64,000 nucleotides of DNA, from positions 1 to 64,000 of the forward strand of contig NZ_JMPI01000068.1 in the NCBI RefSeq assembly GCF_000735355.1, in the 5' to 3' direction. This DNA is from Buttiauxella agrestis ATCC 33320. GTDB lineage: Bacteria > Pseudomonadota > Gammaproteobacteria > Enterobacterales > Enterobacteriaceae. The notes beneath the pieces are model-generated. The model saw nothing but the letters and a program-made list of their open reading frames with translations, searched no databases and had not been told where the DNA came from. Of the stretch, positions 32,571 to 47,573 are shown piece by piece. Made by a program: the position numbers and the translations under genes. Position 1 is the first letter of the stretch; the number at the start of each line of letters is the position of its first letter.

Positions 32571-33578
32571 ATGTCGCTTAAAGCCATCGCCAAACAACTC
32601 GGACTTTCTGTTACTACTGTCAGCCGCGCGCTGAACGGTTATGACGATGTATCGCAAGAGACAAAAGCACGTGTCGAAGCCGAAGCACAGCGCCGTGGTT
32701 ACCGCCCAAATACCTTTGCCCGCCGCCTGAAGATGGGGAAAATTGATGCCGTTGGGCTGGTTTTTCCTGTTCATCCCGTGCCGCTCAATAACAGCGTCTT
32801 TATGGACATGGTCGGCGAAATTAGCCGTGAACTGGCGCAACATGAAGTGGATTTACTGCTTATTGCCGATGACGATAATGCCGATCGGCACGGATTTATG
32901 CGCATGGTGCAAGGCCGCCGTGTCGATGCGCTGATTGTGGCTCACACGCTCGATAACGATCCACGTTTGCAGCAGCTACAATCTGCCGGTTTTCCGTTTT
33001 TGGCACTGGGTCGCAGCCAACTGGCTCAACCCTACGCATGGTTTGATTTTGACAACCACGCTGGCACATTTAATGCGGCTAACCATCTGATTTCACTCGG
33101 ACATGAGCGAATCGCGCTGCTTGGCGAAAATAACTACCAGGCGTTTATCACGCAACGCCGCAACGGCTATCTTGATGCACTCGCAAACCACCAGTTATGC
33201 ACGGATTATCTACGCGAAGTGCCACCAACCCGCCGCGCGGGTTACAAAGCCGTGCAAGAGTTAATGGCGTTACCTTCGCCACCCACGGCGATAATTACCG
33301 ACTGCAACTCGCATGGCGACGGTGCCGCGATGGCATTGCAACATATGGGATTGCTGACGGGTGAAAACCGCGTGTCCCTCGTGGTTTATGATGGTTTGCC
33401 AACAGACAGCATTGTCGAAACTGACGTCGCCGCCGTGATTCAATCGACGCGTGAAGGTGTCGGAAAGCAAATTTCAAGCATGGTGCTGGGCCTGATTTCC
33501 GGCCAACCTATCGATTCCCTGCAAATACTTTGGCAACCGGAATTTTTTCCCGGCGTCACCACTAATCCTCCAGCCTGA
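32571..33578 (+). CDS. LacI-family repressor of the alpha-galactoside operon
   Basis: A 335-residue LacI/GalR regulator. The helix-turn-helix SLKAIAKQLGLSVTTVSRAL and hinge RRGYRPNTFARRL lie at residues 2-60; the rest is a periplasmic-binding-like sugar domain. It lies 106 bp upstream of the alpha-galactosidase gene in the same orientation. Two GAAACGTTTC-type operators sit in that gap, so repression relieved by an alpha-galactoside or galactose is likely. It resembles RafR/GalR-type repressors. Confidence 0.92.
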   Translation: MSLKAIAKQLGLSVTTVSRALNGYDDVSQETKARVEAEAQRRGYRPNTFARRLKMGKIDAVGLVFPVHPVPLNNSVFMDMVGEISRELAQHEVDLLLIADDDNADRHGFMRMVQGRRVDALIVAHTLDNDPRLQQLQSAGFPFLALGRSQLAQPYAWFDFDNHAGTFNAANHLISLGHERIALLGENNYQAFITQRRNGYLDALANHQLCTDYLREVPPTRRAGYKAVQELMALPSPPTAIITDCNSHGDGAAMALQHMGLLTGENRVSLVVYDGLPTDSIVETDVAAVIQSTREGVGKQISSMVLGLISGQPIDSLQILWQPEFFPGVTTNPPA

Positions 33579-33591
33579 TTTTCACTGATTT

Positions 33592-33647
33592 TATAATCAC
33601 GATCACATTACCGAAACGTTTTGGTTGGCATCCGAAACGTTTCGGAT
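33592..33647 (+). promoter_or_regulatory. Alpha-galactoside operon control region with tandem LacI operators
   Basis: TATAAT at 33592-33597 is a possible -10. CCGAAACGTTTTGG (33611-33624) and the perfect palindrome ATCCGAAACGTTTCGGAT (33630-33647) have centres 21 bp apart, two helical turns, suiting paired LacI-family dimers. A partial CRP-like half site (TCACA) lies just upstream at 33603. Confidence 0.85.
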
Positions 33648-33684
33648 CAACAGTAATGACATCACTTTCCCGGAGATGCCATTC

Positions 33685-35808
33685 ATGGAACCGATTTATC
33701 ATCGCTTAACCAGCGCCCAAAGCGACATCGTTATAAGAACCCAACCTTTCGCCGAAATTGTCTACTGGGGCCAGCATCTTGTGCACTTTTCACCGCTAGA
33801 TTGCGCCAGCCTGGATCGCCCCATCGCCAATGGCCGCCTTGATATTGATACGCCGATAACCTTAGGTGCAGAACTCGGGCGCGGTCTGTTTGGCTCGCCG
33901 GGGATTGAAGGCCATCGCAACGGCCTGGATGCCTCCCCTATCTTTACCACCACGCAGGTGGAACAAAACGGCCAGAATTTAACGATCACCGCTGAGGATA
34001 AGCAGGCCGGTTTGCGCCTGATTAGCGAGCTTCGTCTTGATAGCAGCGGCGTGTTGCAAATTCGCCATGGGCTGACCAACTTACGCGCGACTCCGTGGCA
34101 AGTGGATCGCCTGGCTATCACTCTGCCCATTGCTGAACGCGCCCTGGAAGTCATGGCGTTTCATGGGCGCTGGACACGTGAATTCCAGCCACACCGCATT
34201 CGTCTCGAACACGACAGCTTCGTGCTGGAAAATCGCCGGGGGCGCACCTCGCATGAACATTTCCCGGCCATGATTGCGGGAACGGCCGCATTTAGTGAAC
34301 AGCAAGGCGCTGTGTGGGGCGTGCATTTGGGCTGGAGCGGCAACCATCGTCTGCGCTGCGAAGTGAAAACGGATGGCCGTCGTTATCTGCAAGCCGAAGC
34401 GCTGTATCTGGCGGGGGAAATGGCGCTGGGTGAAGGCGAAACGCTGCACACGCCGTGGCTTTATGCCAGCCATTCTGGCAATGGGCTGAACGGTATGAGC
34501 CAGCAATTTCACCAATTCCTGCGCGAACAGGTTATTCGCTTCCCGGAAAATAAGCCGCGCCCGGTGCATCTCAATACGTGGGAAGGGATCTATTTCGACC
34601 ATAACCCGGAATACATCATGCAGATGGCGAGCCGCGCCGCCGAATTGGGCGTGGAGCGTTTCATCATTGATGACGGCTGGTTTAAAGGCCGCAATCATGA
34701 CCGGGCAGCGCTCGGCGACTGGTATCTTGACGAGCAAAAATATCCGAATGGTTTGATGCCGGTTATCAACCATGTGAAGGCATGCGGCATGGAATTTGGT
34801 ATTTGGGTCGAGCCGGAAATGATTAACCCGGATTCCGATTTATACCGTGCGCATCCTGATTGGGTACTGGCGCTGCCGGGCTACGAGCAGGCAACCGGGC
34901 GTTACCAGTGGGTGCTCGATCTTAGCAATCCACAGGTGTTCGATTATCTTTTAGAGCGCATGAACTGGCTGCTGGGCGAACATCCGATTGATTACGTGAA
35001 GTGGGATATGAACCGCGAGCTGGTTCAGGCGGGGCATAATGGCAAAGCGGCAGCGGATGCACAAACTCGTCAGTTTTACCGTCTGTTGGACGAACTTAAC
35101 CGCAAATACCCGCATGTTGAGTTTGAATCCTGCGCATCGGGTGGCGGTCGAATCGACTATGAAGTGCTAAAACGCACCCACCGTTTCTGGGCCTCAGACA
35201 ATAACGATGCGCTGGAGCGTAATACCATCCAGCGCGGCATGAGCTATTTCTTCCCACCAGAAGTGATGGGCGCGCACATCGGTAATCTGCGTTGCCATGC
35301 CACCTATCGTCAGCACAGCATTGAGTTTCGTGGCCTGACAGCCCTGTTCGGGCACCTGGGTATGGAGCTTGACCCGATGACGGCCGACGCTGCCGAAAGC
35401 GCAGGTTACGAGCGCTACGTGCAACTCTACAAACAGTGGCGACCGCTGCTGCATACCGGCAAACAGTGGCGCGTGGATATGCCAGATGCCACAACGCAAG
35501 TGCAAGGTGTCGTTGCGGAAGATAAGTCTCAGGCGCTGTATTTAGTCAGCCAACTGGCGATGCCGGATTATACGCTCGCCGGTAATTTGCGCGTGCCAGG
35601 CCTCGACCCGGCGGCACGTTATTGCATCACGCTGCTCGACCATCCGCAAATCAGCGTGGTGGGCAAAGGCGGTCATACCATGCGCAAGCTACCGGGCTGG
35701 ATGGAAACAACGCAAACCGTTAGCGGGGAATGGCTGGCGCAGGCCGGATTAGCCCTGCCGATCCTCGACCCGGAAAGCGCCATTTTGATTGGCTTTGAAC
35801 GCGTGTAA
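33685..35808 (+). CDS. Alpha-galactosidase, GH36
   Basis: Cytosolic GH36 enzyme hydrolysing melibiose or raffinose-type alpha-galactosides. From the ATG at 33685 (GGAG upstream) it has 707 residues, like plasmid RafA. Catalytic motifs: nucleophile Asp in YVKWDMNRE, and SCASGGGRIDYEVL followed by the acid/base Asp in FWASDNNDALER. The N-terminal beta-supersandwich and the FIIDDGWFKGR segment are intact. First structural gene of a three-gene operon with a LacY/RafB-type symporter and a LacA-like acetyltransferase. Confidence 0.95.
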   Translation: MEPIYHRLTSAQSDIVIRTQPFAEIVYWGQHLVHFSPLDCASLDRPIANGRLDIDTPITLGAELGRGLFGSPGIEGHRNGLDASPIFTTTQVEQNGQNLTITAEDKQAGLRLISELRLDSSGVLQIRHGLTNLRATPWQVDRLAITLPIAERALEVMAFHGRWTREFQPHRIRLEHDSFVLENRRGRTSHEHFPAMIAGTAAFSEQQGAVWGVHLGWSGNHRLRCEVKTDGRRYLQAEALYLAGEMALGEGETLHTPWLYASHSGNGLNGMSQQFHQFLREQVIRFPENKPRPVHLNTWEGIYFDHNPEYIMQMASRAAELGVERFIIDDGWFKGRNHDRAALGDWYLDEQKYPNGLMPVINHVKACGMEFGIWVEPEMINPDSDLYRAHPDWVLALPGYEQATGRYQWVLDLSNPQVFDYLLERMNWLLGEHPIDYVKWDMNRELVQAGHNGKAAADAQTRQFYRLLDELNRKYPHVEFESCASGGGRIDYEVLKRTHRFWASDNNDALERNTIQRGMSYFFPPEVMGAHIGNLRCHATYRQHSIEFRGLTALFGHLGMELDPMTADAAESAGYERYVQLYKQWRPLLHTGKQWRVDMPDATTQVQGVVAEDKSQALYLVSQLAMPDYTLAGNLRVPGLDPAARYCITLLDHPQISVVGKGGHTMRKLPGWMETTQTVSGEWLAQAGLALPILDPESAILIGFERV

Positions 35809-35869
35809 TACCATGACATCGGGGCGGCACACGCTGCCCCATCAAGTTTGTCCCTTTGAGGAAAACACA

Positions 35870-37135
35870 ATGAGCATGCCTGCCTGTACCCATAAAAATA
35901 ACCCTAATTTCTGGATTTTTGGCCTGTTTTTCTTTCTCTACTTTTTCATTATGGCGACCTGTTTCCCGTTCCTGCCCATCTGGCTTTCGGACGTAATCGG
36001 CCTGAATAAAACGCATACCGGGATCGTGTTTTCCTGTATTTCTCTGTTTGCCATTCTCTGCCAGCCCGTTCTGGGGATCATTTCCGACAAGCTTGGGCTT
36101 AAAAAGCATTTGCTGTGGGTCATAACCCTGATGCTGTTCTTCTTCGCCCCTTTCTTCTTGTATGTTTTTGCTCCGCTGCTAAAAGCCAATATCGTGCTCG
36201 GGGCGCTTGCTGGCGGGATTTATATCGGTTTTGTATTCTCTGCCGGTTCCGGCGCAATTGAGGCGTATATCGAGCGTGTGAGCCGCAATAGCTATTTTGA
36301 ATACGGTAAAGCGCGGATGTTTGGCTGCCTGGGCTGGGGGTTGTGCGCTTCCACCGCAGGGGTGTTATTTAACGTTAATCCGGCGTTTGTGTTCTGGATG
36401 GGTTCAGGTGCGGCCGTGATTTTGATGGTGCTGTTGCTGGTCGCTCGCCCACAGGCAAACCAGACCGCGCAGGTTATGGATTCTTTGGGTGCCAATCAGC
36501 GCCAGATTTCTGCAAAAATGGTCTTTTCGTTATTTAAAATGCCCAAAATGTGGATGTTCATTCTCTATGTAGTGGGTGTGGCATGCGTTTACGACGTCTT
36601 CGATCAACAGTTTGCGACCTTCTTTAAAACCTTCTTTGATACTCCGCAGCAAGGCACCCAAGCCTTCGGTTTTGCGACCACTGCCGGAGAAATTTGCAAC
36701 GCGATTATTATGTTCTGCTCGCCGTGGATCATTAACCGCATCGGCGCCAAAAACACGCTGCTGATTGCCGGGGCGATCATGACCACGCGTATCATCGGCT
36801 CGGCTTTCGCCACCTCCGCGTTTGAAGTGATTGCACTCAAAATGTTGCATGCGCTGGAAGTGCCGTTCCTGTTGGTTGGGGCATTTAAATATATTACCGG
36901 CGTGTTCGACACCCGCCTGTCAGCCACGATTTATTTGATTGGTTTCCAGTTTGCCAAACAGTCCGCGGCGATTTTCCTCTCGGCTTTTGCCGGAAATATG
37001 TACGATAAGATTGGCTTCCAGGATACATACCTGATTCTGGGCGGTATCGTGCTGACCATCACCGTCGTGTCAGCGTTTACCCTGTCAAATCACAGAGTCC
37101 CGCTCCCACAAACTGCGGCAGCTCCGGCAAATTAA
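35870..37135 (+). CDS. Oligosaccharide:H+ symporter, LacY/RafB family
   Basis: A 421-residue MFS permease with twelve helices that imports the galactoside with a proton. The LacY functional residues are all visible: Glu and Arg of the sugar site in AYIERVSR and GKARMFGCLGW, Arg in TTRIIGSAF, and His/Glu of proton translocation in LHALEVPFLLVGAFKYI. The start at 35870 has GAGGA 8 nt upstream; an earlier in-frame ATG overlaps the galactosidase gene and is unconserved. Whether it prefers raffinose, melibiose or lactose cannot be read from the sequence. Confidence 0.94.
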   Translation: MSMPACTHKNNPNFWIFGLFFFLYFFIMATCFPFLPIWLSDVIGLNKTHTGIVFSCISLFAILCQPVLGIISDKLGLKKHLLWVITLMLFFFAPFFLYVFAPLLKANIVLGALAGGIYIGFVFSAGSGAIEAYIERVSRNSYFEYGKARMFGCLGWGLCASTAGVLFNVNPAFVFWMGSGAAVILMVLLLVARPQANQTAQVMDSLGANQRQISAKMVFSLFKMPKMWMFILYVVGVACVYDVFDQQFATFFKTFFDTPQQGTQAFGFATTAGEICNAIIMFCSPWIINRIGAKNTLLIAGAIMTTRIIGSAFATSAFEVIALKMLHALEVPFLLVGAFKYITGVFDTRLSATIYLIGFQFAKQSAAIFLSAFAGNMYDKIGFQDTYLILGGIVLTITVVSAFTLSNHRVPLPQTAAAPAN

Positions 37136-37147
37136 GGAAGAAAGAAC

Positions 37148-37729
37148 ATGTCAGTACGAAGAAAAATGGAAGTTGGCGAGCTGTATACGGACCACTGCGA
37201 AGGGTTGCCGGAAGAGCGCCGGGCAGGCAAAGAGTTGGTCTATGACTACAACATGACGCGCCCTTCGCAAGAAGCTCACCGTGCCGAACTGCTCCAGCAA
37301 TTATTTGGCAGCGTGGGCGAAAATTGCTGGGTCGAGCCGCCCATCCGCGTGGCTTATGGCAACCACACGCATATCGGCAAAAACTTTTACGCTAACTTTA
37401 ATTTCATCGTGGTGGACGATGCCACGGTGACGATTGGCGATAACGTGATGGTTGCCCCCAATGTGACTATTTCTACCGCCGGGCATCCGATAGACCCGGA
37501 GATCCGCATCACCGGGCAGCAGTTTTCTTTGCCCGTCATCATTGAAGATAACGTGTGGCTGGGAACGGGCGTCATCATCAACCCCGGCGTGGTGATTGGC
37601 CGCAACAGCGTGATTGGCGCGGGTAGCGTAGTGACAAAATCTATTCCGCCAAACGTGGTTGCCGCAGGCGTGCCTTGCCGGGTGCTGCGTGACATTACCG
37701 TGGAAGATAAATTGTCTTTTGCTGGTTAG
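37148..37729 (+). CDS. Galactoside/maltose O-acetyltransferase, LacA-like
   Basis: A 193-residue acetyl-CoA-dependent left-handed beta-helix acetyltransferase close to LacA/Maa. The N-terminal cap is DHCEGLPEERRAGKELVYDYN. The catalytic His lies in VTISTAGHPIDPE, and hexapeptide repeats run from about 70 to 180 (IGDNV, IEDNVWLGTGVIINPG, IGAGSVV). It follows the symporter by 12 bp, reproducing the lacZYA logic with an alpha-galactosidase in place of LacZ. It probably detoxifies excess sugar. Confidence 0.93.
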   Translation: MSVRRKMEVGELYTDHCEGLPEERRAGKELVYDYNMTRPSQEAHRAELLQQLFGSVGENCWVEPPIRVAYGNHTHIGKNFYANFNFIVVDDATVTIGDNVMVAPNVTISTAGHPIDPEIRITGQQFSLPVIIEDNVWLGTGVIINPGVVIGRNSVIGAGSVVTKSIPPNVVAAGVPCRVLRDITVEDKLSFAG

Positions 37730-37772: not shown

Positions 37773-38123
37773 ACGCTTATTTCTTTTAGACATCTAAATT
37801 AAACCCTTCCCTTTTCAGCCATATAAAAATGCGTTAGCAGTCACATTTTTGAAAGCTAATAATCCCCCATCAAAACCAAGTACACGCTGATATTATTAGT
37901 TTTCACCCGCCAAGATTAATCCATTGAAATATAAAATATTTTCAACAAATGTTTTGTTTTCCGCAATTAATTAGCTGTGATTCATATCACAAAAAAAGCC
38001 CCTAAAAACCCTCTGTCAATGACCTCCAGGCTTAAATGAATCCTGCTTTTGTGACATCCATTGCAAATTCAAGTCTTGTTTAAAGGGAAAAATGTCTGCA
38101 AGCAAATAAACGAGGCGAGCGTC
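37773..38123 (+). other. Control region of the Ula-type PTS operon
   Basis: A 351-bp AT-rich non-coding stretch. It contains the inverted repeat CTAATAAT (37856-37863) / ATTATTAG (37892-37899), a consensus CRP site at 37976-37991, and GAGG before the ATG at 38124. No gene seen. Confidence 0.6.
37976..37991 (+). promoter_or_regulatory. CRP-binding site
   Basis: TGTGA-TTCATA-TCACA, a perfect match to both CRP half-sites, 132 bp before the PfkA-like start codon. It predicts cAMP-CRP activation of the operon. Confidence 0.88.
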
Positions 38124-39104
38124 ATGAGAATCGGCATGGTAATTAGCGGCGGTGATGTCACGGGAATAAATAATTTTGTTTTTCAGATTTCCCGACTGGC
38201 ACAAGCAGAAATCGTTTTGTTTAACGGTGGTATTCCAGGTTTATTGCAGAATAATCACCAGGCTATTTCCGCACGGGATCTAGTGGATTTTTCTGTTGCT
38301 GCCATTCCGATTATGTCTTCAGGCAGAACTCATCGTAAATTAATGGGTAGCGAATATGAAACCATCGCAAAACAGTTAAAAACCCTGCATATCGATGTGC
38401 TTATTATGGCAGGCGGAGACGGCTCCTTACAGTTTCTGAATAACCTTAGCGAATATGGTGTGAATTGTTTCGGTGTCGGTATGACTATCGACAACGATGT
38501 TTACGGCAGTGATTACACCATTGGTTTTTCAACTGCCTGTGAACAAGTCATTAAAGAAGTCGGCAAACTGCGTAATACAGGTCGCGCTTTGCCAGGGCGG
38601 GTTTTTATGGTTGAACTGCTCGGCGGCTACTGCGGTGAATTGACGCTGCAATCGGCGATTAAAAGCAATGCTGATTTTGCGCTCATCCCCGAATGCCAGC
38701 AGTCGTTGAGCGAACTGGCACACAAGATTAGCGCACGCCTTGAGACACAAAACAGCGTCGTAATCCTTTGCTCTGAAGGTTACACCAAAGAATATTCCCC
38801 CGGTTTCCAGGGGGCGATTGACACCATGATTAAACAACTTGAGCCAAAAATTGGCGTACGAATTCGTAAGTCAATTATTGGTTATAGCCTGCGTAACGGT
38901 GACCCTACCTGCGAGGAAATTTATCAGGGCACAATTATGGCAGGTGAAGTCGTTCGTTGTATCCAGTCCGGTATGAGAAATAAAGCCATTATTATTAATT
39001 CGAGTAACAAACCGATCCCTATAGATTTAATCAGTATGCAAAAACGCCTCGTCGACACCGAAGGGCATCATTATAAATTAGCGAAGCAGCTCAATATTAT
39101 TTGA
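38124..39104 (+). CDS. Divergent PfkA-family sugar-phosphate kinase
   Basis: A 326-residue ATP-type phosphofructokinase homologue. Kept: the N-terminal ISGGDVTGINN loop, GGDGS (glycine after Asp marks an ATP- rather than PPi-dependent enzyme) and TIDNDVYGSDYTIGF with the catalytic Asp. Changed relative to E. coli PfkA: the EVMGR motif is ELLGG (losing Arg171 and Met169) and GHIQRGG is GYSLRNG (His249 to Tyr). Both touch the fructose-6-phosphate site, so a different sugar phosphate is likely. GAGG precedes the ATG at 38124. It heads a seven-gene PTS operon. Confidence 0.85.
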   Translation: MRIGMVISGGDVTGINNFVFQISRLAQAEIVLFNGGIPGLLQNNHQAISARDLVDFSVAAIPIMSSGRTHRKLMGSEYETIAKQLKTLHIDVLIMAGGDGSLQFLNNLSEYGVNCFGVGMTIDNDVYGSDYTIGFSTACEQVIKEVGKLRNTGRALPGRVFMVELLGGYCGELTLQSAIKSNADFALIPECQQSLSELAHKISARLETQNSVVILCSEGYTKEYSPGFQGAIDTMIKQLEPKIGVRIRKSIIGYSLRNGDPTCEEIYQGTIMAGEVVRCIQSGMRNKAIIINSSNKPIPIDLISMQKRLVDTEGHHYKLAKQLNII

Positions 39105-39115
39105 GGAGACTTTCA

Positions 39116-39430
39116 ATGCTTAAAATTCTTTGTGTATGCGGCTGTGGTTTAGGTTCCAGTTTCGCCATTGAAATGGCTGCAACTGCGGTACTTAAAAAAC
39201 TTCAAATCCCGGCAGAAATTGATCACACCACCGTATCAGAAGCGGGGGCCTTTAAATCTGACATTATTTTAACGCAAAAAACCTTCGCCGATATTTTAAC
39301 GGCCGATGCCAGCGAAGAGGAAATTAAACGCGTCATTGTGCTGCACCGTCTCACGGATAAAGACGAAATCGAACAAAAGATTGTCGCCTTTTTAAAAGAA
39401 CGCAATGTGAAGGTATTCGACCATGAATAG
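39116..39430 (+). CDS. PTS EIIB, Ula (ascorbate) family
   Basis: A 104-residue cytosolic IIB protein. The phospho-Cys motif is LCVCGCGLGSSFA (residues 5-17), as in UlaB/SgaB. The start at 39116 follows GAGGAG. It overlaps the IIC gene by 8 bp. It passes phosphate from the IIA at 41967 to sugar bound by the IIC. Confidence 0.9.
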   Translation: MLKILCVCGCGLGSSFAIEMAATAVLKKLQIPAEIDHTTVSEAGAFKSDIILTQKTFADILTADASEEEIKRVIVLHRLTDKDEIEQKIVAFLKERNVKVFDHE

Positions 39431-40790
39431 CATCATTAACTTTATTGTTAAAGACCTGCTAGGACAGGCATCAATATTGATTGCCTTTATTGCCATGCTC
39501 GGTCTTTTGCTGCAAAAAAAATCGAAGGGTAAAGTCGCGGAAGGGACGTTTAAAACGCTGCTTGGTTTTTTAATCATGATGGCGGGTATCAACATTATTG
39601 TTGATACGCTGACTTTCCTGAACGACATCTTCACCCACGGTTTCGGTATGAAAGGCTACATCACCGATGTGGCCGCTATTGCCGGCCTTGCAAACCGTGA
39701 GCTGGGTTCCGAAGTGGCACTCACGCTGATGGTGATATTTATCGTCAACATCATCATTGCCCGCATCACGCCGTTTAAGTACATCTTTCTCACCGGGCAA
39801 GCACTGCTTTGGATGGCAACGATTGGTGCAGTTATCGGCTATAAAGCCGGGCTGACCGGGCTACCGTTGATTCTTACTGGCGGGATCTTCGGCGGAATTA
39901 TGGCGGTGCTGATGCCTGCCCTCGCCCAACCTGTGGTACGCCGCATTACCGGTTCTGACGATGTCGCTCTGGGCCACTTCTGCACTATTGGTTATCTGGT
40001 GCAGGCTGCGGTGGCGAAAGTTGTCGGCAAGGGTTCTAAATCTACCGAAGACCTGGTGCTACCGGATAACTTCAAATTCTTGCAGGACACTTACCTTTCG
40101 ATGGCCGTGGTGATGATCCCTATGTACCTCATCCCGGCGCTGGCGGCAGGCCCGGAATACATCGGCCAATACTCCAACGGCGTGAATTACCTGATGTTTG
40201 CGTTTATGCAGGCAATTCAGTTTGTTGCCGGGGTATTCGTGCTCTATAGCGGTGTGCGTTTGCTGCTTAACGAACTGGTGCCTGCGTTCCGTGGTATTGC
40301 GATGCGCATCGTACCGGATGCCAAACCGGCGCTGGACTGCCCGGTGCTGTTCCCTTACGCCCCCAATGCCGTAATTGTTGGTTTCCTTGCCACAACTGTC
40401 GGCTCCATCATCGGCATGATTGTCTTCCCAATGTTTGGCCTGGCGATGATTCTGCCTGGCTTGTTGACCAACTTCTTTGCTGGCGGCACCGCTGGGATTT
40501 TCGGTAACGCAATGGGCGGCAGACGCGGTGCAATCATCGGCGGCGTAGTACATGGACTGTTTATTACCTTCCTGCCAGCCATCCTGGTGCCAATGCTTGA
40601 AAGCTACGGCTTTACCGGTGTGACTTTCAGTGATTCTGATGTGATCAGTAGCGGCCTGATTTTGGGACATGTATTCCAGAATAACTGGACGTTTGTCGGC
40701 TTATTCATCCTGTTCGTAGCGCTTATCGCCTGGTTCGTGAATGGCAAATCAACCAAACCTCAAGAGGAAAAAGCACATGAGTCTGTATAA
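39423..40790 (+). CDS. PTS EIIC, UlaA/SgaT family
   Basis: A 455-residue polytopic permease of the ascorbate PTS family with about ten to eleven helices. The family segments GFLIMMAGINIIVDTL, the GLTGLPLILTGGIFGGIMA stretch, DVALGHFCTIGYL and HVFQNNWTFVGL align with UlaA. The soluble tail (GKSTKPQEEKAHESV) overlaps the aldolase start by 14 bp. Ula genes usually travel with decarboxylase and epimerase genes, whereas here it is with a kinase and an aldolase, so the substrate is probably not ascorbate. Confidence 0.9.
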   Translation: MNSIINFIVKDLLGQASILIAFIAMLGLLLQKKSKGKVAEGTFKTLLGFLIMMAGINIIVDTLTFLNDIFTHGFGMKGYITDVAAIAGLANRELGSEVALTLMVIFIVNIIIARITPFKYIFLTGQALLWMATIGAVIGYKAGLTGLPLILTGGIFGGIMAVLMPALAQPVVRRITGSDDVALGHFCTIGYLVQAAVAKVVGKGSKSTEDLVLPDNFKFLQDTYLSMAVVMIPMYLIPALAAGPEYIGQYSNGVNYLMFAFMQAIQFVAGVFVLYSGVRLLLNELVPAFRGIAMRIVPDAKPALDCPVLFPYAPNAVIVGFLATTVGSIIGMIVFPMFGLAMILPGLLTNFFAGGTAGIFGNAMGGRRGAIIGGVVHGLFITFLPAILVPMLESYGFTGVTFSDSDVISSGLILGHVFQNNWTFVGLFILFVALIAWFVNGKSTKPQEEKAHESV

Positions 40791-41619
40791 CTTCCCGGAT
40801 TTATTACAGGTAGCCAAAGAGCGTAAATTTAAAGCGGTAGGCTCCTTTAATTTGCATTGTCTTGAAATGCTGCCCGCTTATTTTAAAGCTGCCAAAGCAA
40901 CCAATAGCCCGTTAATGATTCAAATTTCTACCGGGACGGCGGAATATTTAGGTTATCGTTTATTAGTAGATTCCATTCGTTCTTTATCCGAAAGCCAGCA
41001 AATACCCACCTGCTTGCATCTGGATCACTGCTCAGATATTGAGTCCATTAAAACAGCCATCGATGCCGGGTTTAGTTCAGTAATGTATGACGGTTCCCAT
41101 CTGGACATGGCAGATAATATTGCTAATACCCGTAAGGTTATTGATATTGCTCGCCCGCGAAATATCTCTGTAGAAGCAGAATTAGGCGCGATTGGCGGCT
41201 CAGAAGATGGCAAAGCGGTTGCCATGGAAGATATTTGCTTTACCACCACCGAAGACGCCAAACGCTTTGTTGATGAAACCGGGGTGGATATGCTGGCGGT
41301 ATCCGTCGGTACGGTACACGGCCTGTATACCGGCAAAGCGAAAATTCAGCATCAACGCCTGGCGGATATCAGCGAAGTGACCAAAACCCCGCTGGTACTG
41401 CACGGTGGCACAGGTGTCAGCGATGAAGATATGCGCCGCGCCGTCGCCGGGGGCATTGATAAAGTCAACGTCGGTACTGAAATGAACGTGCAATGGGTTG
41501 GACACTGCAAAGAAACCTTCGAGAAGGGCAAAGTGAATGACAGTGTGCGCAAATTTTTAATACCGGCAAATGATGCAGTCGCTGCTGTATTAATCGAAAA
41601 GATCGCATTATTTAAATAA
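40777..41619 (+). CDS. Class II fructose/tagatose-bisphosphate aldolase family protein
   Basis: A 280-residue zinc aldolase of the KbaY/GatY/FbaA family. Zinc and substrate motifs are visible: LHLDHCSD (base Asp and zinc His), YDGSHLD, VEAELG, SVGTVHGLY (zinc His), LHGGTGVSDED (zinc His, phosphate loop) and KVNVGTEM. AGAGGA precedes the ATG at 40777. With the PfkA-like kinase it suggests phosphorylation to a bisphosphate and cleavage to two trioses. Confidence 0.92.
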   Translation: MSLYNFPDLLQVAKERKFKAVGSFNLHCLEMLPAYFKAAKATNSPLMIQISTGTAEYLGYRLLVDSIRSLSESQQIPTCLHLDHCSDIESIKTAIDAGFSSVMYDGSHLDMADNIANTRKVIDIARPRNISVEAELGAIGGSEDGKAVAMEDICFTTTEDAKRFVDETGVDMLAVSVGTVHGLYTGKAKIQHQRLADISEVTKTPLVLHGGTGVSDEDMRRAVAGGIDKVNVGTEMNVQWVGHCKETFEKGKVNDSVRKFLIPANDAVAAVLIEKIALFK

Positions 41620-41687
41620 AGCAGGCGTTATCCTCTACTCTTCATTGTAACCCTGGTTGCGTGGCAACCGTCGGGCGGGAGCTAGCT

Positions 41688-41957
41688 ATGTTTGGATCTT
41701 TAAAAAAACTTTTTCACAGTGATAATTCGGATACGGCGCAATATGATATTCAAGCCGTACAACTTGAAACTGAATTAACTGCTCTGGAAAACACGTTAAC
41801 GGAAAACCCAAATAATGGCGAAACACAAAAAGCATTAATGTTGCGCTATAACCAGGCGTTACAAGTTTTTGCGAAGAGTAAAACACACCGTCAGCATATC
41901 GATGCTTTATTTGTCAAAATTGATGAGCTGAGAAATATTATTCGTAAGAATATTTAG
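41688..41957 (+). CDS. Small coiled protein of the PTS operon, unknown
   Basis: An 89-residue charged helical protein that I do not recognise. MFGSLKKLF is a short amphipathic start, followed by heptad-like segments (DIQAVQLETELTALENTL and IDALFVKIDELRNIIRK) that suggest a coiled coil. GGGAG precedes the ATG at 41688. A small hairpin (GGTTGC/GCAACC) in the 68-bp gap after the aldolase may tune expression. It lies 9 bp before the IIA gene, so it is probably co-translated with PTS components; an adaptor or regulator role is speculation. Confidence 0.72.
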   Translation: MFGSLKKLFHSDNSDTAQYDIQAVQLETELTALENTLTENPNNGETQKALMLRYNQALQVFAKSKTHRQHIDALFVKIDELRNIIRKNI

Positions 41958-41966
41958 GGAGAACTC

Positions 41967-42404
41967 ATGGCCATTAAAGAGTTATTAATTGAAGCGCAAG
42001 CAATACAAGTTGGCGTGCGCGAAACGGACTGGAAAAAGGTGATTAGACTGGCGGCTCAACCGCTGGTTGATAATGGCTATATCCTGCCCTCCTACTACCA
42101 GGCAGTAATTAATAACACCCTTGAGCATGGTGCGTATTACGTTTTTGAAGAGGGCGTCGCCATGCCCCACGCTCGCCCGGAATGCGGGGTGATAAAAAAT
42201 GGCTTCAGTCTGGTTTTGCTTGATGAGCCCATCGCCTTTGCCGACAGCGAAAAGGCCGATATCGTGATTATGTTTGCCGCCTGCGACAGCAACGGGCACA
42301 TCGAAGAAGGTATCCGCGCGATTGTGAATTTGTTGGGCGATGATGATGTGATGGCAAAACTGCGTCGGGCAAAAGGTAAGGAAGAGGTGATCGCAATATT
42401 ATGA
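41967..42404 (+). CDS. PTS EIIA, Ula/mannitol type
   Basis: A 145-residue PTS_EIIA_2 protein close to UlaC. The phospho-His is in EEGVAMPHARPE near residue 68. A good RBS (AGGGAGAA) precedes the ATG. Its stop overlaps the P-loop kinase start as ATGA. It completes an A+B+C set split across the operon. Confidence 0.9.
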   Translation: MAIKELLIEAQAIQVGVRETDWKKVIRLAAQPLVDNGYILPSYYQAVINNTLEHGAYYVFEEGVAMPHARPECGVIKNGFSLVLLDEPIAFADSEKADIVIMFAACDSNGHIEEGIRAIVNLLGDDDVMAKLRRAKGKEEVIAIL

Positions 42405-42958
42405 GCCAGACCACGCGAACACAGGGCAAAACGGTGGTACTTGTGAACGGCGTACCCGCCTCAGGAAAAAGCACTATCGCCCGTTTGTTGTCCGAACATT
42501 TTGCGCTACCGATTCTGACCATTGATGGCATAAAAGAGCCTTTTATGGCCCAGTTCGATGAAATTGATCGGCCATTCAACCGCCGCCTCGGAAGTGCCGC
42601 TTATGAGGTCATTTGGTCGATAGTGGCCGATAGCCCAATGCAATGTGTCTTTATTGTCGATGCATGGTTTGGCTTCCAACCGAAAGAGGCGCTTGAACGA
42701 TATCTTGAGCAGGCGGGCGTTACCCGGGTTCTGGAGGTATGGAACCAAATTCCTGGCCCCCTCGCCGCCGAACGCTATGCGCAGCGGCTTGGCGTAAGAC
42801 GCCACGGGCACCCAGGGGAAGAATATCTGCCGGAGTTGGTAAAACTTGCGGATAACGCAGAACCGATGTCGCTTGGGCCGGTTTACACCGTGGACCACCG
42901 CGAGCCGATAGACAGAGCCGGTCTCGTGGCATGGCTGGATAATGGAATGGGCCAATAA
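42401..42958 (+). CDS. P-loop kinase of unknown substrate
   Basis: A 185-residue AAA_33/zeta-like small-molecule kinase. Walker A is VNGVPASGKSTIARLL (residues 14-29), a DGIKEPF segment follows, and FIVDAWFGF (about 88) is Walker-B-like. Conserved C-terminal RRHGHPGEEYLPEL may be the lid. It is translationally coupled to the IIA gene (4-bp overlap). It may phosphorylate a pathway intermediate; the chloramphenicol-phosphotransferase/gluconokinase-like fold does not reveal which. Confidence 0.82.
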   Translation: MSQTTRTQGKTVVLVNGVPASGKSTIARLLSEHFALPILTIDGIKEPFMAQFDEIDRPFNRRLGSAAYEVIWSIVADSPMQCVFIVDAWFGFQPKEALERYLEQAGVTRVLEVWNQIPGPLAAERYAQRLGVRRHGHPGEEYLPELVKLADNAEPMSLGPVYTVDHREPIDRAGLVAWLDNGMGQ

Positions 42959-44092: not shown

Positions 44093-44821
44093 TTACTTCC
44101 CCACCCAGCTATTTTTTATTTTGAATTTGTCTGCGCGGTTGTAGCTGCACGAAAAGTTAAACGCTTTGCCATCTTCAAGTTTGGTCACACCAGAGACTTT
44201 GAGCATTGGTAAACCTTCAGAAATCGACAATAAAGCGGCGAGTTCTTCATTGAACAAATCGCCTTCAATAACCGAGTTATAAAACTTAATTTTTTTGCCG
44301 GTGTATTTTTCGATGTATTCATATAAAGAGCCATGCTCTAGCACTGAGCCTGGAATGGTTTCGATAACATCACTATTTATCCATGAGTCTTCAACCAGCA
44401 CCGGGACACCGTCAATTAAACGGATACGTCGAATAAAATGCACCCGCTGTTCTGGCTGCATTTCCAACTGCTGCGCGACCCACTGCGGCACTTGAATTTG
44501 TTCATGTTGAACAAGCTGGCTGGTGATTTTCGCCTGCTGACCAAATTCACGAGAAAAGCCTAAAATAGAATCCCCGGTACCGCTGTTGAGCATATAGACA
44601 TTGTCTTCAATCACTTTCGTGACATACATTCCTTTGCCATGGATTCGCTCGATAAACCCTTCCTGTTCAAGGATATGCATCGCTTTTTGTAGCGTCACTC
44701 GCGTGACGCCATATTGCACGGCAAGCTCTCTTTCTGACGGGATTTTCTCGCCAAGCTGGTAGCGATGGCTGAGGATATCATCCTGAATACTCTTCTTTAT
44801 TTCTATATATCGCGCAGCCAT
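44093..44821 (-). CDS. GntR/UTRA-family regulator
   Basis: A 242-residue HutC-subfamily regulator. The winged helix is residues 5-70 (YQLGEKIPSERELAVQYGVT and HGKGMYV); the UTRA ligand domain is about 85-235. Members of this group often sense phosphorylated sugars. It is the last gene of a minus-strand operon behind the EIIC and GH4 genes, and probably acts at the 20-bp palindrome upstream of the GH4 gene. Confidence 0.9.
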   Translation of the reverse strand: MAARYIEIKKSIQDDILSHRYQLGEKIPSERELAVQYGVTRVTLQKAMHILEQEGFIERIHGKGMYVTKVIEDNVYMLNSGTGDSILGFSREFGQQAKITSQLVQHEQIQVPQWVAQQLEMQPEQRVHFIRRIRLIDGVPVLVEDSWINSDVIETIPGSVLEHGSLYEYIEKYTGKKIKFYNSVIEGDLFNEELAALLSISEGLPMLKVSGVTKLEDGKAFNFSCSYNRADKFKIKNSWVGK

Positions 44822-44853
44822 AGGGGTTATTTCCGGGTGTTATCATCCAGCCA

Positions 44854-46104
44854 TTAGTGTACCACTTCAGCTAACAACTCTGCTTCCTGCGCTTCAATAG
44901 CCAACTGTTTTACTTCCATTATTCTGAAGAACGGATAGTAGATGATTGTCGAAATAATAATCATGCAGCCCGACCATATTGCCGCAGGAATATTCCCGCC
45001 GGTGGCAAAATACGCATTCAGAATGGGTGGCATCGTCCAGGGGATTTGGAATACCGGCCTGCCAATAATGCCGAAATCCATCAGCAGATAAGAGCAGGTA
45101 CAAATCACCATGGGCGCGACAATCAGCGGGAACATCATGATTGGGTTGAGGACCATCGGCACGCCAAATATAACCGGTTCGTTAATACAGAAAATCGACG
45201 GCCCAAAAGAGACGCGGCCAATGGATTTGTAATAACGGCTTTTAGACAGCAGCATTGCCAGCACTAAACCCATGGTGGCACCCGATCCACCGGCACAGAT
45301 AAAGAAGTTATAAAACCCTTCGGCGGTTATGTGTGGAACGGGCTGGCCACTAAGATATGCCTGAGTATTTTCAGCAATAAATTTTAAAAATATCGGGCTG
45401 GTGATCCCGGAAAGTACGTTGGTGCCATGAATGCCGCAGCTCCATAACAACGAAATAAGCGCTACCAGAATTAACATACCAGGCAACGTATCTAAACCGT
45501 GAACCAGTGGGCTGAGCAGCAGAGTAAAGAACGCGTTGATATCAAAATTCAGAATCACGCGTACAAACCAGACGATCGTAAGGCATACCACTGCGGGTAC
45601 CAGACTGATAAACGATTGCAACACGGCGGGAGGAACACCTTCTGGCATTCGGATATAGATTTTGTGCGTGATAAAAAAGCGTACGGTATAGACCGTAAAT
45701 ATCGACAAAATAATGGCTGAGAATAACCCCGCGGCCCCAAAATTATCGACGTTAATTTTATAATGGCTATCGAGTTGCGCGAGAACAAAAACCGCTACCG
45801 TAATACAACAACAACTTAGACCATCAAGGTTGTATTGTTTTGCCAGGTTATAACTGATGCCAATCGCCGCGACTAAACCAATTATCCCAAAAGTTGCCTG
45901 TACCGGGACACTGAGTTTATCCGCATAGGCTCCAAGAAACTCACTCCAGCCCGGAATGGGTAAGTTAGCAATAATCAGAAACAGGCTTCCGGCAATAATA
46001 AATGGCAATGTAAAAGCGATACCGTTACGAATGGCGACCAAAATAACGTTATTGCCGAGCTTCATTAAGACCGGAATAACTCTGTTTTCCAGAAAGCTTT
46101 GCAT
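44854..46104 (-). CDS. PTS EIIC, cellobiose/lactose family
   Basis: A 416-residue membrane permease of the Lac PTS family (CelB/ChbC-like). The segments IRNGIAFTLPFIIAGSLFLI, CGIHGTNVLSGITSP, CAGGSGATMGLVLAMLLSKS and GPSIFCINEPVIFGVPMVLNP are characteristic. It is shorter than ChbC (about 450) and no IIA or IIB partner is encoded next to it, so it must borrow them in trans. AAGGA precedes the ATG at 46104. It follows the GH4 gene by 18 bp. Confidence 0.92.
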   Translation of the reverse strand: MQSFLENRVIPVLMKLGNNVILVAIRNGIAFTLPFIIAGSLFLIIANLPIPGWSEFLGAYADKLSVPVQATFGIIGLVAAIGISYNLAKQYNLDGLSCCCITVAVFVLAQLDSHYKINVDNFGAAGLFSAIILSIFTVYTVRFFITHKIYIRMPEGVPPAVLQSFISLVPAVVCLTIVWFVRVILNFDINAFFTLLLSPLVHGLDTLPGMLILVALISLLWSCGIHGTNVLSGITSPIFLKFIAENTQAYLSGQPVPHITAEGFYNFFICAGGSGATMGLVLAMLLSKSRYYKSIGRVSFGPSIFCINEPVIFGVPMVLNPIMMFPLIVAPMVICTCSYLLMDFGIIGRPVFQIPWTMPPILNAYFATGGNIPAAIWSGCMIIISTIIYYPFFRIMEVKQLAIEAQEAELLAEVVH

Positions 46105-46122
46105 GAAATATTCCTTTAATGA

Positions 46123-47445
46123 CTATTCATCCATGGCGAGAGTGTATTGCGGCAAGAAGTCTCGGTTAGCGGCTAAATACTCCTTGAGTATATTCTCCGC
46201 AACCGCCACGGACGGCACTAACGGGTGAGCCGCCAGCGCCAGCAAAGCCGTATGTTTATTGCCGGTCATTGCCGCTTCAATGGTCAGTTCTTCAAAGGCT
46301 TTAACACTCTGAACTAGCCCACGAATGCGGGCTGGCAAGCGCCCGTAAGCCAAAGGACGTGCGCCCTGTTTATCAATCAGCGCATTGGTTTCAATGACTG
46401 CGTCATCCGGCAAATCAGGCGTTGTCCCTCGATTGGCGGTATTAACGACATGTACCTCTTTTTTATTGTTATAAAGCGCGCTGATAATCGAGCAGGCAGT
46501 GTCGGAATAATAAGCGCCGCCCCGGTTTGAGAGTTCCGGGGGTTTTTCGCAAAGCTCAGGGTTGCGATAAATTTCAAACAGGGCCTTTTCAATTTGCAGC
46601 GAACGTTCGCCACGAGTACCGCCTTGATTTAATTCCTCCAGTTCATGCTCAACCATTTCCCGATTTAAGTAGAAATACTTTAAATAGGAGAGTGGATATA
46701 CATTCAGCGCGCGGATAAACTCAGGCGGTAAACCCACATCAGGGATATTTTTTAATTTATTGTCACTCGCTCCCTGCGCAAGTTTCTCAATAAAATCAGC
46801 GGTAATATCTTTGCCATGCAGAGTAATTCGGTCGGCAAAAATTAAATGGTTCAGCCCCATAATTCTGGCATCAATTGCCTCGCGGCCCACGCCGTAGGTT
46901 TTCGCGATATCCATCATCATGCTGTTTGCACCGCTACAAATCCCCAGAGATTTGATTTTGCTGTGCTTCTCAATGGCCTCAGTCACAATCCCTGCCGGAT
47001 TAGTGAAGTTGATTAGCCAGGCATCCGGGCAGAGCGTCTCCATCTCTTTGCAGATTTCCAACAAAACCGGAATGGTGCGCTGCGCCTTCATAAAACCGCC
47101 AGGACCAGTGGTTTCCTGGCCCAAAACACCATAACGCAGGGGGATCTTTTCATCCTGAATACGTGCGGCAAGCTGCCCGACGCGAATTTGTGTAGTAACG
47201 AAATCGGCATCTTTTAACGCCAACTGGCGGTCGGTGGAAAGGTGCACCGTCATGGGAATACCCGATTTTTTCACCATTCGCTGGGCGAGTTGACCGACGA
47301 TTTCCAACTTTTCACGGCCTGTTTCAATATCCACCAACCAAAATTCGCTAACAGGAAGTTCAGCGTGTCTTTTAATAAATCCGTCTATGAGTTCCGGCGT
47401 ATAACCAGAACCACCGCCAAGAGTAACTATCTTTAATGGCTTCAT
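46123..47445 (-). CDS. 6-phospho-beta-glucosidase, GH4
   Basis: NAD- and metal-dependent GH4 glycosidase hydrolysing phosphorylated beta-glucosides delivered by the PTS. From the ATG at 47445 (AAGGAAG upstream) it has 440 residues. The NAD loop is KIVTLGGGSGYTPELIDGF; the metal-binding motifs are NFTNPAGIVTEA and LGICSGANSMM (the usual C-N of GH4), with GLNHL following. It resembles CelF/LicH. First gene of the GH4-EIIC-GntR operon. Confidence 0.93.
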   Translation of the reverse strand: MKPLKIVTLGGGSGYTPELIDGFIKRHAELPVSEFWLVDIETGREKLEIVGQLAQRMVKKSGIPMTVHLSTDRQLALKDADFVTTQIRVGQLAARIQDEKIPLRYGVLGQETTGPGGFMKAQRTIPVLLEICKEMETLCPDAWLINFTNPAGIVTEAIEKHSKIKSLGICSGANSMMMDIAKTYGVGREAIDARIMGLNHLIFADRITLHGKDITADFIEKLAQGASDNKLKNIPDVGLPPEFIRALNVYPLSYLKYFYLNREMVEHELEELNQGGTRGERSLQIEKALFEIYRNPELCEKPPELSNRGGAYYSDTACSIISALYNNKKEVHVVNTANRGTTPDLPDDAVIETNALIDKQGARPLAYGRLPARIRGLVQSVKAFEELTIEAAMTGNKHTALLALAAHPLVPSVAVAENILKEYLAANRDFLPQYTLAMDE

Positions 47446-47466
47446 GATGCTTCCTTTTTTTAAATT

Positions 47467-47486
47467 AAACTGGCATATGCCAGTTT
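47467..47486. promoter_or_regulatory. Operator of the GH4-EIIC-gntR operon
   Basis: Perfect 20-bp palindrome: AAACTGGCAT followed directly by its reverse complement ATGCCAGTTT, 21 bp before the GH4 start. Position and symmetry fit binding by the GntR dimer encoded in the operon. Confidence 0.8.
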
Positions 47487-47573
47487 GCAAAAAAGAAAAT
47501 ATCACACTCGTTGAGAGCAACTTTGGATATTTGTCACATATTTAAAAGGGTTATTGATAACCTGAAAATCGGC

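Follow-up and report, generated by a model that had tools for sequence, protein, structure and literature searches.

A stretch of 64,000 nucleotides from Buttiauxella agrestis ATCC 33320 (contig NZ_JMPI01000068.1, positions 1 to 64,000 of the forward strand; the whole stretch is called the window here) carries an operon that is probably dedicated to the catabolism of a ketose, which is probably not fructose. The sugar would be imported by a Ula-type phosphotransferase system (PTS), converted to a bisphosphate by a PfkA-family kinase (PFK) and cleaved by an aldolase. The source genome comprises 4.73 Mb on 93 contigs. Open reading frames (ORFs) and family profile searches place seven plus-strand genes at 38124-42958, in the order PFK, IIB, IIC, class II aldolase, 89-aa protein, IIA and P-loop kinase (KIN). 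The initial annotation, made from the sequence of the window, had described the same seven genes and their overlaps (8, 14 and 4 bp), and this layout holds.

38124..39104, plus strand: PfkA-family kinase (PFK); PF00365, 198 bits; GGDGS motif
39116..39430, plus strand: PTS IIB; PF02302, 37 bits; CVCGCGLGS motif
39423..40790, plus strand: PTS IIC, Ula/GatC superfamily; PF03611, 408 bits; NF009551, 823 bits (cut-off 657)
40777..41619, plus strand: class II ketose-bisphosphate aldolase; PF01116, 299 bits
41688..41957, plus strand: 89-aa small protein; three helices in the structure model
41967..42404, plus strand: PTS IIA; PF00359, 106 bits; HARP motif in 68 of 68
42401..42958, plus strand: P-loop kinase KIN; AAA_18 and AAA_33, both under the Pfam cut-offs

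The gene set is not a product of chance, because all 66 close PFK loci contain all seven genes in the same order. They were found with a PFK pattern scan of one genome per species (84,980 species), which reaches close relatives only. Altogether, the scan returned 67 loci; the 67th, from Robinsoniella, has a PFK of 27% identity, and the other six genes were not found in the 9.7 kb examined there. Among the carriers are Buttiauxella, Serratia, Pantoea, Klebsiella, Raoultella, Vibrio and others, which we take to include plant-associated as well as opportunistic genera. The overlaps are conserved as well: IIB/IIC (8 bp) in 62 of 68 loci, IIC/aldolase (14 bp) in 67 of 67 and IIA/KIN (4 bp) in 68 of 68. 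The genes flanking the operon differ between genera, and the block therefore seems to move as a unit.

The nearest named relatives by PFK include Buttiauxella brennerae and B. noackiae (97%); the PFK of Enterobacter sp. R1(2018) is 98% identical over its best segment and is broken in that assembly (L087 7001-8039). Occurrence is patchy. An operon-type PFK (at least 66% identity) is present in nine of 60 relatives, and KIN in 13 of 394 genomes of the order (E 1e-6), one of 274 of the class (E 1e-10) and 10 of 398 of the phylum (E 1e-15), the own genome being counted in each case. At E 1e-45, the operon PFK was found among 369 genomes of the class in the own genome only. None of 5,426 Escherichia coli genomes has a place that covers 80% of the 3,977-base operon query; 1,318 of them match a short piece of it, which the matches listed name as the ascorbate IIC gene. 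For Klebsiella pneumoniae CP125156 (L154 4300-8255), PFK and aldolase are absent from the gene table, which is itself incomplete. Decay, an assembly error or a gap in the table might lie behind these two cases. No description of the operon was found in the open-access full-text literature, subscription papers lying outside that search; the same literature yielded no characterised homologous operon, which the initial annotation had named as one of the findings that would speak against its proposal.

The residues of PFK suggest a changed sugar substrate. They were counted in 67 sequences, one from the window, one from Sodalis and 65 from the 66 loci, without L087, whose frame is broken in the assembly. 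In PfkA structures, R162, R243 and R252 (E. coli PfkA numbering) hold the 6-phosphate, the sugar pocket is formed by M169, R171 and H249, and the allosteric site includes R21 and R54. All 67 operon PFKs keep GGDG, T125, D127, D129, R72, R162, E222, R243 and R252. None of them has M169, R171, H249, R21 or R54 (0/67): M169 is replaced by Leu throughout, R171 by Gly (64) or Ala (3), H249 by Tyr (58) or Phe (9), and both R21 and R54 are lost in every sequence. All 12 gammaproteobacterial PfkA proteins examined keep M169, R171, H249 and R21, and R54 is Lys in two of the 12. The operon PFK thus resembles glycolytic PfkA in its family and in its catalytic and phosphate-binding residues (it is 26-34% identical to the PfkA of relatives) but differs from it at three sugar-pocket positions and two allosteric arginines. 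The retained phosphate residues, the altered sugar pocket and the lost allosteric arginines suggest that a phosphorylated ketose is the likely substrate, that fructose 6-phosphate is doubtful as such and that allosteric control has probably been lost. The GGDGS motif is presumably of the ATP type. PFK scores below the cut-offs of the PfkA models (TIGR02482, 158.9 of 371; NF002872, 203.9 of 253), the operon PFKs form a separate branch in the tree (support 1.0), and an ordinary PfkA is encoded elsewhere in the own genome (G000:C74).

The aldolase retains D83, H84, E135, H181, H209 and R258 in 67/67. R258 aligns with the Arg of the "DPRKF" stretch in solved class II fructose-bisphosphate (FBP) aldolases, which binds the distal phosphate. 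At position 233, all 67 have Gly, and the four FBP aldolases compared have Asn. The protein passes the broad ketose-bisphosphate models (TIGR00167 (cbbA), 261 of 215.6; PF01116, 299 of 25.5). Its best NCBIfam model is class II FBP aldolase, at 285 bits below the cut-off of 343, and it is likewise under the cut-offs for GatY (254 of 383 bits), KbaY (203 of 542) and tagatose-bisphosphate aldolase (234 of 444). The residues of the two enzymes agree with a PfkA-type kinase acting on a phosphorylated ketose and with a bisphosphate aldolase. Families and residues together support the earlier proposal of a self-contained set for import, phosphorylation and cleavage.

For the permease, the best IIC model is NF009551, which names no sugar; IIC also exceeds the cut-off of the model "PTS ascorbate transporter subunit IIC" (NF006919, 478.6 of 380 bits). 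With the L-ascorbate PTS (UlaABC) the system shares the IIC superfamily PF03611 and IIA, IIB and IIC as separate proteins. It differs in that the seven genes examined include a kinase and an aldolase instead of a lactonase, a 3-keto-L-gulonate-6-phosphate decarboxylase and epimerases, as the initial annotation had seen when it described a Ula-type permease lacking the enzymes of the ascorbate pathway. A PTS, a second kinase and a ketose-bisphosphate aldolase are also found in the D-tagatose and galactitol pathways (TagTH, TagK, GatY) and in LacC-LacD. The second kinase of those pathways belongs to the PfkB family, whereas that of the operon is a PF00365 PfkA-family protein; the operon permease is Ula-type and not fructose- or Gat-type, and the operon aldolase falls under the GatY and KbaY cut-offs.

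The 89-aa protein is modelled as three helices (pLDDT 83). A structure search gave no match at E ≤ 0.001, the best being TPR-like with E 0.39 and worse, and an assignment to DUF2968 was rejected (19.8 of 27 bits). Two further Ula-type IIA-IIB-IIC sets were noticed. One lies about 3 kb upstream of the operon in Celerinatantimonas (L085 2176-4193). The other is located in the own genome behind a LacI-type gene (L155 3866-6026, G000:C73), and inspection of its ORFs by eye showed no adjoining ascorbate decarboxylase. EtcABC of K. pneumoniae was considered as the same PTS and set aside by gene arrangement: in passages of the report on it, its IIA, IIB and IIC genes are numbered consecutively, KPN00353 to KPN00351 (PMC6629953), whereas IIB-IIC and IIA of the operon stand two genes apart.

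The last gene of the operon is more than a side detail. KIN remains below the AAA_33 Pfam cut-off (19.9 of 27), which a rhizobial relative fused to a ROK kinase passes (30.4 of 27). Its structure model is confident (pLDDT 91) and has a P-loop kinase fold; the best solved match is the putative kinase 2rhm (Z 21.4, rmsd 2.3, 178 aligned). This fold is common to adenylate, phosphoseryl-tRNA, shikimate and gluconate kinases and names no acceptor.

The relatives of KIN provide a metabolic context. A plasmid of Sodalis praecaptivus carries PFK-IIB-IIC-small-IIA-KIN without the class II aldolase, followed by a LacD/DeoC-family aldolase and a HAD phosphatase. LacD-like proteins from Rhizobium and Agrobacterium show 66.6% and 71.5% identity to this aldolase; they adjoin a fusion of an N-terminal ROK kinase with a C-terminal KIN relative, near ribose-type ABC genes and a SorC-type regulator. 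A tblastn search found LacD-like aldolase, ROK kinase and KIN together, fused or adjacent, in all 25 alphaproteobacterial loci (20 matches from 19 genomes among 297 of their order, one from another genome and four from plasmid records). PFK, the class II aldolase and IIC were not found in any of these 25 stretches at E 1e-8. A SorC-type gene is present in 21 of them and a relative of a substrate-binding protein in 16. KIN was counted by tblastn; GC-based gene calling showed no KIN in four of the 25. KIN matches 29 plasmid records, of which four alphaproteobacterial ones were examined, and its relatives in plasmid records are 42-57% identical. The Hyphomicrobiales loci thus share KIN with the operon, and the aldolase with Sodalis, but differ in that import would mostly be by a ribose-type ABC system and a ROK kinase in place of the PTS, with no PFK found. 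No published description of them was found. The LacD-type aldolase in Sodalis and the grouping in 25/25 loci make KIN and an aldolase look like a core common to a PTS version and an ATP-kinase version. Close to one of these loci lies a set made up of a Gfo/Idh oxidoreductase, a sugar isomerase, a hydrolase and a ribulose-phosphate or allulose epimerase-like gene (L105 13011-17440), and it recurs in part near L106, L136, L139 and L146.

A more distant variant is the plasmid operon of Enterococcus gilvus and E. raffinosus, composed of PRD-IIA, IIB, IIC, a TPR protein, a class II aldolase and a P-loop kinase. Its IIC is 58% and its aldolase 46% identical to those of the Buttiauxella operon, and its TPR protein is distantly like the 89-aa protein (hhalign probability 84%, pairwise E 7.7e-6). 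It differs in that regulator domains are fused to IIA and that no PFK is among the annotated genes; any relationship of its kinases to KIN is remote (E 0.00095 and 0.012, computed in a small set).

From the observed families, gene order, residues and synteny we infer the reactions, the sugar and the acceptor of KIN as follows. IIA, IIB and IIC would import the ketose and phosphorylate its terminal CH2OH, and PFK would use ATP to add a phosphate at C1, which would yield a ketose bisphosphate. This product would then be cleaved by the class II aldolase, or by the LacD-type enzyme in Sodalis, to dihydroxyacetone phosphate (DHAP) and an aldose phosphate, which would be glyceraldehyde 3-phosphate from a hexulose and erythrose 4-phosphate from a heptulose. 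KIN may act in the same pathway as a second conserved kinase, on a sugar or a sugar phosphate. In the alphaproteobacteria, the ROK kinase fused or adjacent to the KIN relative may stand in for the PTS. In general terms, either a PTS or ABC import plus ROK would provide the terminal phosphate, PFK or KIN the C1 phosphate, and either type of aldolase the cleavage. The two uptake routes may converge on one natural ketose that is cleaved as a bisphosphate, by a Ula-type PTS and a PfkA-derived kinase in gammaproteobacteria and by ABC import and ROK/P-loop kinases, sometimes fused, in rhizobia and relatives. We put this convergence forward tentatively, at somewhat below even chances.

Several points weigh against this pathway as outlined. 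The roles of the PFK residues are taken from structures of PfkA, and position 171 varies outside the operon family too, being His in the Robinsoniella PFK. PFK and KIN would be redundant if both act at C1, and the PTS could phosphorylate C1 instead. The alphaproteobacterial loci in which no PFK was found indicate that PFK is not a universal second kinase. These 25 loci were moreover found via KIN, and a ROK label guided the choice of two of the four plasmid loci. KIN is therefore present by construction and ROK partly so, and the LacD-like aldolase is the independent, informative part of the grouping. The line from PTS over PFK to aldolase, as originally proposed, agrees with the residues but leaves the fully conserved KIN unexplained, since KIN relatives travel with a LacD-type aldolase and ROK, with no PFK found, in 25/25 loci. 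The 66 loci and Sodalis might keep both kinases because the substrates are a pair of epimers, because one kinase rescues the free sugar or because one acts on a product of the cleavage.

The same loci give rise to the alternative that KIN and not PFK makes the bisphosphate, with PFK serving a second sugar or an epimer imported by the same PTS. All 25 alphaproteobacterial loci contain LacD-like, ROK and KIN, with no PFK found, and the two Enterococcus operons combine PTS, TPR protein, class II aldolase and P-loop kinase, again with no PFK among the annotated genes. The remote relationship of the Enterococcus kinases to KIN takes away from this parallel, and PFK stands beside KIN in all loci of the PTS version examined (66/66 and Sodalis), although these loci were found via PFK and so contain it by construction. 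We regard this alternative as possible but doubtful.

If PFK does make the bisphosphate, D-tagatose could be the sugar of a new-style tagatose pathway, which we consider unlikely. A LacD-type aldolase is present in Sodalis, and one Serratia DeoR-family protein matches AgaR second best (161 of 260 bits, under the cut-off). At L115, a PfkB kinase encoded behind the ABC genes resembles tagatose kinase most closely (266 of 420 bits, under the cut-off), and relatives of it (39-45% identical) occur in three more of the 25 loci. In addition, E. coli PfkA reportedly converts tagatose 6-phosphate to tagatose 1,6-bisphosphate; the passages concerned support only this action of PfkA on tagatose 6-phosphate (PMC10101011). 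Passages of the same paper describe another D-tagatose PTS in Klebsiella (PMC10101011), and the aldolase fails the cut-offs for GatY, KbaY and tagatose-bisphosphate aldolase. The carrier species Cedecea sulfonylureivorans (L027, whole operon) is listed as D-tagatose negative in a table, which weakens the case for this sugar, although the match is at species level and kit tests can miss unexpressed genes; for another carrier, Dryocola boscaweniae (L025), the trait is absent according to the text of that paper and "na" according to its table (PMC12671600). When the own genome was searched for tagatose kinase and allulose-6-phosphate epimerase, all matches stayed under the cut-offs.

Ordinary glycolysis would require no new sugar: PFK and aldolase could be spare parts acting on fructose 6-phosphate and fructose 1,6-bisphosphate, with the PTS importing fructose or a sugar that ends there. 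Both enzymes belong to glycolytic superfamilies, and the aldolase has class II FBP aldolase as its best model and keeps the catalytic residues. They stay, however, below the equivalog cut-offs for PfkA and FBP aldolase, the PFK pocket and allosteric residues are altered, the operon PFKs branch apart from PfkA, the own genome has a normal PfkA as well, and the genes accompany a specialised kinase in 66/66 loci. This makes such a role improbable.

A ketoheptose, sedoheptulose or mannoheptulose, would give DHAP and erythrose 4-phosphate, and the enzyme set fits this chemically. PfkA and FBP aldolase accept sedoheptulose phosphates, the operon PFK is altered at positions that contact the sugar in PfkA, and many carriers presumably belong to plant-associated genera. 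Sedoheptulose 7-phosphate would, however, enter the pentose phosphate pathway without these enzymes, and nothing to the point was found in the open-access full-text literature. We rate a ketoheptose as quite improbable; D-sorbose is, like the ketoheptoses, a candidate sugar. The case for D-psicose (allulose) is very improbable: a ribulose-phosphate or allulose-6-phosphate 3-epimerase-like gene lies near three alphaproteobacterial loci (L105, L106, L136), but passages of a study of K. pneumoniae describe a different locus with permease, kinase and epimerase for this sugar, where deletion of the permease impairs growth on psicose (PMC6020474), and K. pneumoniae ATCC 13883 carries the operon (L062), a comparison at species level. 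Hamamelose, for which a kinase is reportedly known from Kluyvera citrophila, was considered as well, and the open-access full-text literature gave nothing useful.

Upstream of the operon, three sites stand out:

37976..37991, plus strand: CRP site TGTGATTCATATCACA; perfect TGTGA-N6-TCACA; block kept in relatives
38013..38019, plus strand: CTGTCAA block; conserved in the alignment of 64 upstream regions; possible operator
38050..38067, plus strand: TGTGACATCCATTGCAAA block; conserved in the upstream-region alignment

The operon is probably controlled by CRP, judging from its upstream sequence. The palindrome lies 132 bp ahead of the first operon gene, and no other perfect TGTGA-N6-TCACA occurs in the 64 kb (0.08 expected). 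It is in line with the consensus CRP site noted initially. A perfect palindrome is present in 37 of 68 upstream regions, and the sites detected by a looser scan mostly begin 145 to 158 bases ahead of the start codon. The alignment covers 64 of the 68 regions (two Vibrio, Celerinatantimonas and Sodalis were omitted) and contains two conserved blocks besides the CRP site, CTGTCAA and TTTTGTGATnTCnnTTGCAAAT. The TGTGACATCCATTGCAAA block looks like a second, imperfect CRP site at a distance of 74 bp from the first, or it might be part of the promoter. Promoter-like sites are no more frequent than in shuffled sequence and were set aside. The initial statement that no dedicated regulator is adjacent applies to the window but not to Serratia, where seven of eight loci have a DeoR-family gene called upstream of PFK. 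The one Serratia protein tested is under every equivalog cut-off, AgaR included; its best model is GlpR (185 of 300 bits).

According to their ORFs, the genes upstream of the operon (32571-37729) are a LacI-like regulator, an alpha-galactosidase, a sugar permease and an acetyltransferase, a raffinose-type set. Five Klebsiella and Raoultella loci have a relative of the LacI gene on the downstream side of this same operon, and in K. pneumoniae CP125156 it is followed by an annotated alpha-galactosidase, which might reflect a shared hotspot or a functional link. Downstream of the operon, on the minus strand (44093-47520), ORFs indicate a GntR-like regulator, a PTS IIC and a 6-phospho-glycosidase-like gene.

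The operon thus probably represents a rare-ketose pathway of a known general type that is built from unusual parts, and is not categorically new. Its family names suggest an ascorbate permease, a phosphofructokinase and an FBP aldolase, and probably mislead in each of the three cases. What makes the operon interesting is the testable link between bacterial classes, together with the unexplained role of KIN. The link to the LacD-ROK-KIN loci offers independent enzyme sets, PFK with class II aldolase and ROK-KIN with the LacD-type enzyme, for one sugar panel; it also makes the question of the operon's substrate directly testable and sets an uncharacterised family of P-loop kinases in a metabolic context. 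If the two routes do converge, KIN would represent a novel type of kinase for a ketose or a ketose phosphate, and the operon would be an unusual recruitment of the PfkA family to a dedicated rare-sugar pathway. Since the operon is present in at least 66 species-level genomes, a real nutrient of these bacteria may have been overlooked.

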